DNA of 64,000 nucleotides from Halobaculum marinum (GTDB taxonomy: Archaea > Halobacteriota > Halobacteria > Halobacteriales > Haloferacaceae): the NCBI RefSeq assembly GCF_029338555.1, contig NZ_CP119989.1, positions 1,116,001 through 1,180,000 of the forward strand. The letters run 5' to 3'. Under the pieces are notes generated by a model that was given only the letters and a program-made list of their open reading frames with translations, was not told the DNA's origin and made no database searches. This document shows positions 26,995 through 59,369 of this stretch, in pieces. The first letter of the stretch is position 1. Each line of letters opens with the position of its first letter. A program made the translations under genes and the position numbers.

Positions 26995-27849
26995 TCAGTA
27001 CTCGTAGAAGCCCTTCCCGGTCTTCTTCCCGAGGTCGCCGGCGGCGACCTTCCGCTTGAGGAGGTAGGCGGGCTTGTACCGGTCGCCCAGTTCCTCGTGG
27101 AGCGTCTCGCTGGCGTCGAGACAGATGTCGAGGCCGATGTGGTCGGCGAGTTCGAGCGGCCCCATCGGTACGTTCGTGCCGAGTTTCATCCCCTTGTCCA
27201 TGTCCTCCTTCGAGGCGACGCCCTCGTCGTACGCGCGGATGCCCTCGTTGATCCAGGGCATGAGCACGCGGTTCGTGACGAACCCGGGTTTGTCGTCGCT
27301 CTCCCACGTCTCCTTGCCCAGGTCCTCGGCGAAGGCGTGGGCGAACTCGGTGACTGCGGGTGCGGTCTTCTCGCCCGTCACGACCTCCACGCCCGTCATG
27401 ATCGGGACGGGGTTCATGAAGTGGAGACCGACGACGAGGTCCTCGCGGTCGGTCGCCGACGCGATGGTCGTGATGGAGAGGGTGGAGGTGTTCGTCGCGA
27501 GCACCACGTCGTCGTCGGTCACGTCGTCCAGATCGGTGAAGATGTCCTGCTTGACGCTCATGTCCTCCAGCGCTGCCTCGACGACGAGGTCGGCGTCGGC
27601 GAGGTCCGCGAGGTCGGTCGTCCCGGTGATCCGCCCTTGGATCGTCGTGGGGTCCTCGTCGAGAGCGTCCTTCCCGTCGAGACGGGACAGCGACGACTCG
27701 ATGGCGTCGAGGCCGTTGTCGACGAACTCGGCCTCGATGTCGCGCATGATCACGTCGTAGCCGGCGGTCGCGGCGACCTGGGCGATGCCGTTGCCCATCG
27801 TCCCCGCGCCGACGACGCCGACCGTCTCGACTGCTTCGAGTTCACGCAT
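26995..27849 (-). CDS. 3-hydroxyacyl-CoA dehydrogenase
   Basis: NAD-dependent oxidoreductase of fatty-acid/acyl-CoA beta-oxidation (3-hydroxybutyryl-CoA dehydrogenase type), 284 residues and single-domain, without a fused enoyl-CoA hydratase. The Rossmann motif is VGVVGAGTMGNGIAQ (from residue 8). The family signature and catalytic His are in VGLHFMNPVP, with TNTSTLSI just before. The C-terminal domain contains DKPGFVTNRVLMPWINEG and ends GKKTGKGFYEY, as usual for the family. GCTTACGG sits about 27 bp upstream of the ATG. Confidence 0.93.
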   Translation of the reverse strand: MRELEAVETVGVVGAGTMGNGIAQVAATAGYDVIMRDIEAEFVDNGLDAIESSLSRLDGKDALDEDPTTIQGRITGTTDLADLADADLVVEAALEDMSVKQDIFTDLDDVTDDDVVLATNTSTLSITTIASATDREDLVVGLHFMNPVPIMTGVEVVTGEKTAPAVTEFAHAFAEDLGKETWESDDKPGFVTNRVLMPWINEGIRAYDEGVASKEDMDKGMKLGTNVPMGPLELADHIGLDICLDASETLHEELGDRYKPAYLLKRKVAAGDLGKKTGKGFYEY

Positions 27850-28011
27850 GAGCGTGGGTGCCCCTGCGGTCACCGTAAGCGTAGCGGAGCGCGGGCGTCG
27901 CGCGCGTCCGCCCCGGCAGGATGACGTGATTCTGACGAATTATTCGCTACTGATAGCTCGCGCAGAAAGATTAAAGCACTCGGCTCCGAGGGACCCAACA
28001 GGTGACCAGGT

Positions 28012-28692: not shown

Positions 28693-28708
28693 TACTCGCC
28701 GCCGAGTA
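28693..28708 (+). promoter_or_regulatory. TrmB-type operator upstream of fba-fbp
   Basis: TACTCGCCGCCGAGTA matches the published Halobacterium TrmB consensus TACT-N(7-8)-GAGTA exactly (N7 here) and is a perfect 6-bp-arm palindrome. It lies about 28 bp upstream of the TATA element and about 60 bp upstream of the ATG. In Halobacterium, TrmB sites upstream of the TATA box activate gluconeogenic genes when sugar is absent, which fits the downstream gene pair. Confidence 0.65.
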
Positions 28709-28731
28709 AATTTCAACCCTCAGACACCATG

Positions 28732-28741
28732 TGATTTATGG
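28732..28741 (+). promoter_or_regulatory. TATA box of fba-fbp operon
   Basis: GATTTATGGG is centred about 28 bp upstream of the aldolase ATG (28765), the standard position for a leaderless haloarchaeal transcript. Confidence 0.6.
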
Positions 28742-28764
28742 GTGATGGCGTCGCCGTTTAGCAT

Positions 28765-29577
28765 ATGATCTCCGGCGCGGACGACGCTATCACCCGAGAC
28801 GGTAAGGCGCTGATTCTGGCGTACGACCACGGCATCGAGCACGGTCCCGTGGACTTCGAGCCGAACCCGGCGACGGCCGATCCGGAGCGGGTGTTCGACC
28901 TCGCGACACACGACGCCGTCACCGCGCTCGCCGTCGGGAAGGGCGTCGCCGAGTCGTACTACCCCAGCTACGAGGACGACGTGGCGCTGTTGGCCAAACT
29001 CAACGGCACGTCGAACCTCTGGATGGGTGAGCCAGACTCCGCGGTGAACTGGTCGGTCGACCACGCCGCCGACCTCGGTGCAGACGCCATCGGCTTCACC
29101 CTGTACGGCGGGTCGAACAACGAGGTGGAGATGGCCGAGGAGTTCCGCGACGCACAAGAGGGCGCCCGCGAACACGACATGGGCGTCGTCATGTGGTCGT
29201 ACCCCCGTGGCCAGGGGCTGAAGAACGACACGAGCCCCGACACCATCGCGTACGCGGCGCGCCTCGGACTGGAGTTGGGAGCGGACGTCGTGAAGGTGAA
29301 GTACCCCGGATCGGGCGAGGCGATGGCGAAGGCCGCTCGGATGGCCGGGCCGACGAAGGTCGTGATGTCTGGTGGGTCGAAGACGAACGACGTGGCGTTC
29401 CTAGAGACCGTGGCGGCGGCGCTCGACGGCGGGGCCGAGGGACTGGCCGTCGGTCGGAACGTGTTCCAGCGCGAGAACCCCGGCGAAATCCTCGACGCAC
29501 TGGAGGCGCTCATGTTCGAGGGTGCCACCGTCGAGGAGGCGCTCACCTACACGTCCGCCGTCGCCGCCGACGACTGA
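28765..29577 (+). CDS. fba: Class I fructose-1,6-bisphosphate aldolase (archaeal DhnA type)
   Basis: Archaeal-type class I aldolase interconverting fructose 1,6-bisphosphate with dihydroxyacetone phosphate and glyceraldehyde 3-phosphate; 270 residues, TIM barrel. The N-terminal signature is ILAYDHGIEHGP (16-28). The Schiff-base lysine is in ADVVKVKYPGSG (Lys177 or Lys179), and the phosphate-binding loops are VVMSGGSKTND and GLAVGRNVFQ. The gene is followed directly by fructose-1,6-bisphosphatase with a TGATG stop/start overlap, so the pair forms a gluconeogenic operon. A TrmB-type site stands upstream. Confidence 0.93.
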   Translation: MISGADDAITRDGKALILAYDHGIEHGPVDFEPNPATADPERVFDLATHDAVTALAVGKGVAESYYPSYEDDVALLAKLNGTSNLWMGEPDSAVNWSVDHAADLGADAIGFTLYGGSNNEVEMAEEFRDAQEGAREHDMGVVMWSYPRGQGLKNDTSPDTIAYAARLGLELGADVVKVKYPGSGEAMAKAARMAGPTKVVMSGGSKTNDVAFLETVAAALDGGAEGLAVGRNVFQRENPGEILDALEALMFEGATVEEALTYTSAVAADD

Positions 29578-30455
29578 TGGGGGCGCCGGACACGGATCCG
29601 GAGGCGGTCGCCGAGGCGGTGCTCGACACCGTCGCGAGCGTCGCCCCCGAGGTTCGGGCGGGACTCCCTGGACGCCGCCGGTACCTCGACGGCGAGAACC
29701 CCTCCGGCGAGGACGTGCTCGCGGCGGACGTGTACGCCGACGACCTGCTGGAGTCAGCCATCGGCGCGCTCGACGGCGTCGGCACGTACGCCAGCGAGGA
29801 GCGCGAAAACGCCGTCGACACCGGTGACGGTCCCGTCTCGGTCGCGGTCGACCCGCTCGACGGCTCGTCGAACCTCCGGTCGAACAACCCGATGGGGACG
29901 GTCGTCGCGGTGTACGACGGCGCGCTCCCGGCGGGCGGTCGCGACCTCGTCGCCGCCGGGTTCGTCCTCTACGGCCCGGTGACGTCGATGGTCGCCGGCG
30001 TCGGCGCGCCCGAGGAGACGACGATCCGAGAGTACCTCGTCACCGAGGACGGCGAGCGCGAAGCCGTGGACACTCTCGACCTCCCGAACGACCCGACGGT
30101 GTACGGCTTCGGCGGTCGCGTCCCCGACTGGCCGGCCGACTTCGCCGCTTACGTCGACGAGGTGGAAGACGAACTGAAACTGCGCTACGGCGGCGCGATG
30201 ATCGCCGACGTGAGTCAGGTGCTCACCTACGGCGGCGTGTTCGCGTACCCGGCGTTGGAGTCGGCCCCGAACGGGAAGCTTCGCCTGCAGTTCGAGGGGA
30301 ACCCCGTCGCGTACGTCCTCGAAGGCGCCGGCGGGCGCTCCTCGACGGGCGACGGGTCGATCCTCGACGCCCCGGCGACGGGACTCCACCAACGCGTCCC
30401 CGTCCACGTCGGTAACGACGACTTGATCGAGCGACTCGAAGCGGCGTTGGGGTAG
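29577..30455 (+). CDS. fbp: Fructose-1,6-bisphosphatase, class I type
   Basis: Hydrolyses fructose 1,6-bisphosphate to fructose 6-phosphate, the irreversible step of gluconeogenesis. About 292 residues. Metal-binding signature VDPLDGSSNL (Asp92, Asp95, Asn99) and upstream ASEERENA (Glu residues) are typical of FBPase/IMPase-fold enzymes. The sugar-phosphate region includes KLRYGGAMIADVSQVLTYGG, and the C-terminus holds KLRLQFEGNPVAYVLEGAGG, a class I hallmark that separates it from inositol monophosphatases. The start ATG shares its A with the aldolase stop (TGATG), so translation is coupled. Confidence 0.92.
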   Translation: MGAPDTDPEAVAEAVLDTVASVAPEVRAGLPGRRRYLDGENPSGEDVLAADVYADDLLESAIGALDGVGTYASEERENAVDTGDGPVSVAVDPLDGSSNLRSNNPMGTVVAVYDGALPAGGRDLVAAGFVLYGPVTSMVAGVGAPEETTIREYLVTEDGEREAVDTLDLPNDPTVYGFGGRVPDWPADFAAYVDEVEDELKLRYGGAMIADVSQVLTYGGVFAYPALESAPNGKLRLQFEGNPVAYVLEGAGGRSSTGDGSILDAPATGLHQRVPVHVGNDDLIERLEAALG

Positions 30456-58039: not shown

Positions 58040-59278
58040 CTACGCCTCGTCGAACAGCGTCTCGCCGTCGACCATGTGCTCCTCGACGGTGTCCATGTCG
58101 AGGGTGACGCCGAGGCCGGGTTCCTCGGGGATGGTGATGTAGCCGTCCTCGATGACGTCCTCCTCGACCAGGTCCTCCCACCAGCCGAGTTCGTACGAGT
58201 GGTACTCGACGGCCAGCGAGTTCGGGATGGCCGCGCCGACGTGGGCGCTCGCCATCGTCGCGACCGGCGAGGAGACGTTGTGCATCGCGACCGGGACGTA
58301 GTACTGGTTCGCCACGTCCGCGATCTTGCGGGTCTCGCGCATCCCGCCGACCTTCGGCATGTCGGGCGCGATGATGTCGACCGCCTGATTCTCGATGAGG
58401 CGACGCTCCTCGGTGACGCGGTAGCGGTTCTCGCCGACCGTGATCGGCGTGACGGTGGACTTCGTGACCTCCTCTTGCACGTCGAGGTTCTCCGGCGGCA
58501 CGGGGTCCTCCAGCCACCACACGTCGTACTCCTCGATGGCGTTCGCGAGGCGCTTGGCGGAGCCACCCGAGAACGTCCAGTGGCAGTCGAACGCCACGTC
58601 GGCCTTGTCCTTCACGCGCTCGGTCACCGCCTCGACGATCTCGGCCTTGTGGCGGATCTCGCCCGGCCGCAGGTGGCGGTTCGCGCGGTCCTTTTCGTGG
58701 CCCGAGGGCACGTCGAGGTCGAACTTCAGCGCGTCGTAGCCCAGTTCCTCGACGACGCGTTCGGCCTCGTCGGCACACGCCTCGGGGTCGGCCTCCTCCT
58801 CGGTGTGGCAGTCGCAGTAGACGCGCATCTTGTCGCGGTACTTGCCGCCCAGCAGCTGGTACGCCGGGATCTCGAGGATCTTGCCCGCGAGGTCGTGGAG
58901 TGCGATCTCGATGCCGGAGATGGCGGTGACGGTGACGCCCTCGACGGAGCCCTCGCCGGACATCTTCTGGATGAGGTGCTCGTACAGGCGGTCGATGTCG
59001 AGCGGGTTCTCGCCGACGACCATCGGCTTCATGCGCTCGATGAGTTCCGGGACGCCCGCGCCCCAGTACGCCTCGCCGGTGCCGACGATGCCGGCGTCGG
59101 TGTACACGCGCACGAGCGTCCACGGGAAGTTCCCGTCGACCATCGTGCACTGCACGTCCGTGATCTCGACGTCGCGCCCGCCGCCGCGCTTCGCCGTCAC
59201 ACCCATCGTCTCGCTCGACAGTTCCCGCATCGTGTACTCCGCGTTCGGGTCGTGGAGCGAGTCGTAGTTCCTGCTCAT
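58040..59278 (-). CDS. Enolase-superfamily sugar-acid dehydratase (gluconate/galactonate or xylonate type)
   Basis: A 412-residue mandelate-racemase/enolase-superfamily dehydratase. N-terminal cap (VEITDVQCTMVDGNFPWTLV) and TIM barrel with metal ligands in VAFDCHWTF (Asp), WWLEDPVPPEN (Glu) and ITVGENRYRV (Glu), then the acid/base His in YVPVAMHNVSSPVATMASAH. The length equals that of haloarchaeal gluconate dehydratase (semi-phosphorylative Entner-Doudoroff) and xylonate dehydratase; the two are not separable by eye. The ATG at 59278 has TTTACACTAATG about 28 bp upstream; this overlaps a near-match to the TrmB operator. Confidence 0.87.
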   Translation of the reverse strand: MSRNYDSLHDPNAEYTMRELSSETMGVTAKRGGGRDVEITDVQCTMVDGNFPWTLVRVYTDAGIVGTGEAYWGAGVPELIERMKPMVVGENPLDIDRLYEHLIQKMSGEGSVEGVTVTAISGIEIALHDLAGKILEIPAYQLLGGKYRDKMRVYCDCHTEEEADPEACADEAERVVEELGYDALKFDLDVPSGHEKDRANRHLRPGEIRHKAEIVEAVTERVKDKADVAFDCHWTFSGGSAKRLANAIEEYDVWWLEDPVPPENLDVQEEVTKSTVTPITVGENRYRVTEERRLIENQAVDIIAPDMPKVGGMRETRKIADVANQYYVPVAMHNVSSPVATMASAHVGAAIPNSLAVEYHSYELGWWEDLVEEDVIEDGYITIPEEPGLGVTLDMDTVEEHMVDGETLFDEA

Positions 59279-59289
59279 GACTGGGCATT

Positions 59290-59305
59290 TACTCGCATTA
59301 GTGTA
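59290..59305 (-). promoter_or_regulatory. Near-match to TrmB operator over the dehydratase promoter
   Basis: Minus strand reads TACACTAATGCGAGTA, one mismatch from TACT-N7-GAGTA. It overlaps the TATA-like element of the dehydratase gene, a position expected for repression. Weaker evidence than the fba-fbp site. Confidence 0.35.
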
Positions 59306-59369
59306 AAGGTTGACTGTCCGCGCGTCGGCGCGGGCGACGGTGGGGCCGAGTCGCTCGCGCGCCGCCGAC

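Follow-up and report, generated by a model that had tools for sequence, protein, structure and literature searches.

The element at positions 28693–28710 of the window, as we call the whole 64-kb stretch of the Halobaculum marinum genome analysed here, is very probably an operator through which the regulator TrmB activates the fba-fbp operon when glucose is scarce and from which it is released by sugar. In the mechanism proposed on the basis of orthology and geometry, TrmB would bind the element, 24 bp upstream of a TATA-like box, at low glucose and would activate the fba-fbp operon, whose activity would let triose phosphates flow to fructose-6-phosphate; sugar would release TrmB, and fba-fbp expression would fall. 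Binding, glucose response and direction of regulation are predicted by analogy to published work on Halobacterium and Haloarcula. The features concerned are listed in the table.

As the original prediction had stated, the 16-mer TACTCGCCGCCGAGTA (28693–28708) exactly fits the Halobacterium TrmB consensus TACT-N(7-8)-GAGTA (PMC3794607); the spacing is N7. No other place in the window matches TACT-N7-GAGTA exactly; with up to one mismatch, 12 strand matches were found compared to 1.8 expected from shuffles. The sequence AAATTT follows directly 3' of the 16-mer. The TATA-like box TTTATG, assigned by eye like the TATA boxes of all other genes, starts 24 bp past the extended operator, which spans −72 to −55 relative to the fba start. 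A position upstream of the TATA box had been predicted as activating geometry, and this agrees with the geometry described in PMC10817205 and PMC4706686. TTTATG and the fba ATG (28765) are separated by 24 bp, and transcription therefore probably begins at the ATG or directly beside it, which would make the transcript near-leaderless.

Features of the fba-fbp region and of predicted TrmB sites (window coordinates, or positions relative to the start of the gene named)
Feature	Position	Strand	Remark
paaH-like 3-hydroxyacyl/3-hydroxybutyryl-CoA dehydrogenase	26995..27873	-	a paaH gene (HAH_1418) also adjoins fbp in Haloarcula hispanica
Upstream gene, DUF7409 and helix-hairpin-helix	28012..28683	+	stop codon ends 9 bp 5' of operator
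TrmB operator TACTCGCCGCCGAGTAAA	28693..28710	+	extended-site match; core palindrome 28693-28708; binding predicted
TATA-like box TTTATG	28735..28740	+	chosen by eye
fba, archaeal class I (DhnA-type) fructose-bisphosphate aldolase	28765..29577	+	homology and operon partner
fbp, class 1 fructose-1,6-bisphosphatase	29577..30455	+	curated family cut-off passed
gnaD-like gluconate/galactonate dehydratase	58040..59278	-	family level only, below curated cut-offs
gnaD site	59290..59307	+	one mismatch; -29 to -12 from start, on core promoter (blocking position)
gapII site	-73 to -56		weak, three mismatches; nearly same place as fba site
ppsA site	-83 to -66		imperfect; no clear TATA by eye
KDPG aldolase site	-11 to +6		overlaps core promoter/start codon
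gapI site	-9 to +8		overlaps core promoter/start codon
gdh site	-51 to -34		abuts TATA-like box
pyk site	-66 to -49		ambiguous geometry

The predicted coupling of a class I aldolase gene with a fructose-1,6-bisphosphatase gene was confirmed, the fbp start codon overlapping the fba stop codon (TGATG, 29575–29579). The fba product matches Pfam DeoC, and its best match in the PDB is the class I fructose-bisphosphate aldolase 1ojx (E 8.8e-66, query residues 10–260), which we take to be the enzyme from Thermoproteus tenax. Because the NCBIfam equivalog cut-offs were not reached (NF040816, 181 of 430 bits; TIGR01949, 157.9 of 299.45), the name fba rests on this homology and on the operon partner fbp. 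A distant fba paralogue (30%) is encoded elsewhere in the genome. The fbp product passes NF006786 (class 1 FBPase; 432.7 vs. a cut-off of 428) and was matched above cut-off by Pfam PF00316 and PF18913. Of 80 fba relatives, 77 have fbp downstream in the same orientation, 74 of them at a distance of at most 60 nt. The three relatives without fbp comprise L050, which ends just past fba, L036, a second fba copy of its genome, and L053, where no match was detected in the approximately 1.3 kb past fba.

A TrmB orthologue (L081), whose absence the original prediction had named as evidence against it, is encoded on the minus strand at approximately 1943.8–1944.8 kb of G000:C1. The protein is matched by PF01978 (78.9 bits) and PF11495 (237.7 bits), both above cut-off, and is the reciprocal best match of the full-length PF11495 protein in two Halobacterium genomes (65% and 64% identity), which stood in for H. 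salinarum VNG_1451C as orthology reference and contain one such protein each. In the phylogenetic tree, L081 groups with these Halobacterium proteins in a nine-protein clade, each member coming from a different genome and that of L081 included (support 100/99). The nearest solved relative is the TrmB chain 3qph, at an E value of 2e-19 only. With site, geometry and orthologue in place, the original interpretation is supported; that the operator drives the operon would follow by analogy to the published systems. The genome encodes five full-length PF11495 matches, L081 and four others, as well as a partial one. Two TrmB paralogue copies, L082 and L083 (trmB2), are located near both ends of contig C2 (G000:C2:20961–21683 and 233762–234484). 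Over 3.7 kb, their loci share 99.9% identity, offset by one base, and a position-by-position comparison did not confirm a terminal redundancy of the contig; the copies represent either a duplication or an unresolved circular overlap. A TrmB orthologue (≥58% identity) is present in 44 of 50 haloarchaeal genomes, drawn from those of the 80 fba loci after MAGs and near duplicates had been dropped; a shortened match was found in two. Some of the six genomes without TrmB are drafts, which makes its absence there uncertain. In Hbc. litoreum, the PF11495 match of trmB (L106, L124; G003:C1, approximately 1010.8–1011.5 kb) is split over two frames near the 3' end, due to a frameshift or a sequencing error.

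A refined operator, TACTCG-N6-AGTAAA, was derived from the promoters of 31 trmB loci, comprising the one of H. marinum and those of 30 of the 44 TrmB genomes. The motif occurs exactly in 13 of these loci, with one mismatch in 10, two in six and four in two; in the 29 loci with at most two mismatches, the site ends approximately 30–32 bp before the start codon. In the 3.5-Mb genome, exact matches are confined to two places, upstream of fba-fbp and of trmB (0.03 expected from base composition), so the motif is specific enough to single out both. With up to two mismatches, 61 strand matches were obtained genome-wide compared to 19 for the reversed control. The scan for the Halobacterium consensus that the original prediction had called for yielded 18 strand matches at 11 distinct places with N7 spacing (reversed control: 1). 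The N8 alternative, which that pattern had included, showed no excess in the genome (12 matches vs. 16 in the control); the consensus is shared with Halobacterium, but is enriched here with N7 spacing only.

Matches to the refined operator with at most one mismatch were located at 13 distinct places, 11 in promoters and two in coding sequence or at a gene end. The promoter sites belong to fba-fbp, trmB, ppsA, gapI, gnaD and the gene for an ABC solute-binding protein and to genes encoding a Gfo/Idh-like oxidoreductase, a UspA protein, PurU, a CoaD-like nucleotidyltransferase and a small protein of 69–78 amino acids. A purS-like gene, recognised by eye, adjoins purU. Intergenic places with two mismatches include those at KDPG aldolase, gdh and pyk; of the other places with two mismatches, many fall within coding sequence or lie beside unrelated genes. 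Further candidate targets are a DUF5786 gene, a xylose isomerase-like gene, a zinc dehydrogenase gene and a thiolase-like gene. The names ppsA, gapI, pyk, KDPG aldolase and purU are based on scores above curated NCBIfam cut-offs, gdh was named by PF16912 and gapII by TIGR01546. The simple gene caller overextended some starts and thereby marked the trmB site and several sites of relatives (L197, L203, L209, L211 and L220 among others) as coding; the start codon of trmB was therefore set by tblastn and those of the other regulon genes by protein prefix.

The sites of fba and gapII are located 5' of TATA-like sequences, a placement described in the literature as activating, whereas those of gnaD, KDPG aldolase, gapI and gdh occupy published repressing positions. 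The geometry of the ABC solute-binding protein site is ambiguous. Gaps between operator and TATA box, counted by eye, amount to 15–17, 24 and 46 bp or more, too few cases for helical phasing to be claimed. The gnaD site is a second TrmB-like operator within the window, and the identical 18 bases precede the Hbc. litoreum orthologue. We propose, with about even chances of being right, that Halobaculum TrmB is a two-way switch. Bound upstream, it would activate fba-fbp, gapII and ppsA; in the absence of sugar, it would directly repress the semi-phosphorylative Entner–Doudoroff genes gdh, gnaD, KDPG aldolase and gapI at core promoters or start codons, and perhaps pyk and the ABC solute-binding protein gene as well. 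It would also control its own gene.

The fba site is exact in Hbc. saliterrae and in the MAG of locus L003, each with the 24-bp gap to the TATA box (loci L002 and L003); Hbc. litoreum contains only two tandem two-mismatch copies before fba. In chosen stretches of Hbc. litoreum (17) and Hbc. saliterrae (15), sites were detected at nearly equal distances from trmB, ppsA, gnaD, KDPG aldolase, gapI, pyk, gdh and gapII. Two-mismatch strand matches were clearly in excess in Hbc. litoreum (53 vs. 13 in the control); in Hbc. saliterrae they barely exceeded the control (73 vs. 57), so that a lone two-mismatch site in this species carries little weight, and for this reason the two-way switch is not rated higher. 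At gapII, the best match within 160 bp upstream on either strand had at most three mismatches in nine of nine TrmB genomes compared and five in the two without TrmB. A lone three-mismatch match at gapII can occur by chance, and weight is therefore given to position and recurrence.

In the wider survey, the TACTCG class with up to two mismatches was found before fba in 13 of 80 upstream regions, the window included. A different palindrome, TTACTA-N6-TAGTAA (up to two mismatches), was detected in the 200 bp upstream of fba; 41 of the 80 regions have it, compared to 0.32 expected from shuffling, and it coincides with a TACTCG-class match in six of the 41. It is positioned mostly at approximately −124 to −143 from the fba start (e.g., L008–L013, L015–L018, L021–L023 and L028–L032); in L012 and L018, a separate TrmB-type site follows approximately 28 bp downstream. 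Some fba genes of Natrialbales (L062, L069, L078 and L079) are preceded by yet another palindrome-like element, recognised by eye as approximately TTACTAC-N4-GTACGTAA, about 55–60 bp before the start. Of the 44 TrmB genomes, 30 had a TACTCG-class or TTACTA-class operator no more than 200 bp from fba, compared to none of the six without TrmB (p = 0.0024, with species that are not independent); neither class was found near fba in the other 14 TrmB genomes. The TACTCG class alone was not significantly tied to TrmB within this distance (10 of 44 vs. 0 of 6, p = 0.33). Genome-wide, the one-mismatch motif gave 315 strand matches in the 44 TrmB genomes (control 116) and 18 in the six without TrmB (control 16; Fisher p 0.017), whereas 13 Halorubrum genomes with TrmB showed no excess (38 vs. 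35 in the control). In Halobacterium strain KA-4 the site at fba is exact, and both Halobacterium genomes contain a two-mismatch site at gapII; no TACTCG-class site was found before fba of Hbt. bonnevillei, in which TrmB is present.

The site may be a genuine operator that is read by a TrmB-family paralogue (L082/L083, L084 or L085) or by another winged-helix factor. Such a reader would accord with the presence of five full-length PF11495 matches, of which two are nearly identical copies, and with the different palindrome before fba in many relatives. However, the same class of site lies upstream of trmB itself in 29 of the 31 loci, and sites were found near gapII and ppsA, which are published TrmB targets. 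The Halobacterium genomes, with a single full-length PF11495 protein each, also have the gapII site, and KA-4 has the exact fba site, although bonnevillei lacks a site there. We consider a reader other than the TrmB orthologue improbable.

The palindrome starts 9 bp past the stop codon of the DUF7409 gene, and the isolated 16-mer can fold (−5 kcal/mol, z −3.68), which speaks for a hairpin or terminator of this upstream gene. In its natural context, however, the stem is absent from the predicted fold (z −0.33), the Hbc. saliterrae copy folds no better than shuffles (z 0.29), no long T run was seen after the palindrome, and the related trmB-promoter sites are mostly imperfect palindromes. The terminator was rejected after folding in context and is very unlikely. 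Slightly less probable still is a functionless palindrome that arose by chance. One-mismatch matches to TACTC-N6-GAGTA are indeed common in the genome (99 per strand vs. 28 in the control), and a scan with this motif was dropped as too unspecific; yet the extended exact site, expected 0.03 times, was found twice, at fba-fbp and trmB, and L002 and L003 share the distance between operator and TATA box. A TrmB operator upstream of fba-fbp is by far the preferred reading.

TrmB of Halobacterium salinarum (VNG_1451C) has fbp and the archaeal class I fba among its targets; ppsA is activated and pyk repressed by it, purine genes are suppressed, and it also binds close to the trmB gene (PMC10817205; PMC3794607). 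gapI is absent from Halobacterium (PMC10817205). In Halobaculum, unlike in the description of this regulon, imperfect sites were also found on gdh, gnaD, KDPG aldolase and gapI. In Haloarcula hispanica, paaH and fbp flank the strongest ChIP peak of TrmB (HAH_1548); the regulator also binds the gapII, ppsA and gdh promoters and activates fbp and gapII (PMC10817205). The neighbourhood of paaH (HAH_1418) and fbp is mirrored by the paaH-like gene near fba-fbp here, and the 19-bp Har. hispanica motif (PMC10817205) is partly palindromic, as is our refined operator. Regulation of fbp and gapII is congruent in Halobacterium and Haloarcula (PMC10817205). TrmB of Har. hispanica is reported neither to repress glycolytic enzymes directly nor to control its own gene (PMC10817205), whereas Halobaculum has the exact trmB site and predicted blocking sites on glycolytic genes. 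Sites upstream of BRE/TATA activate and downstream sites repress in the switch between glycolysis and gluconeogenesis that TrmBL1/Tgr controls via the TGM motif in Thermococcales (PMC4706686; PMC10817205). This motif (TATCAC-N5-GTGATA) differs from the operator described here; the positional logic is alike, and the proposed two-way switch would follow a logic known from hyperthermophiles. PMC4540570 gave no match for fba or fbp. In the open-access literature searched, TrmB work concerned other genera; Halobaculum and TrmB are co-mentioned in a review, each word once.

Because fbp and class I fba are already TrmB targets in Halobacterium, and fbp in Haloarcula, the operator in front of fba-fbp is expected, and as a single operator it is ordinary. 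It is moderately interesting as the anchor of the predicted two-way regulon. What would differ from the published view is the predicted direct control of Halobaculum glycolytic genes together with the exact site at trmB. The findings add a further genus to a known archaeal sugar-sensing regulon. With the repression predicted for the glycolytic branch, the published view of TrmB rewiring in haloarchaea can be tested in a third lineage.
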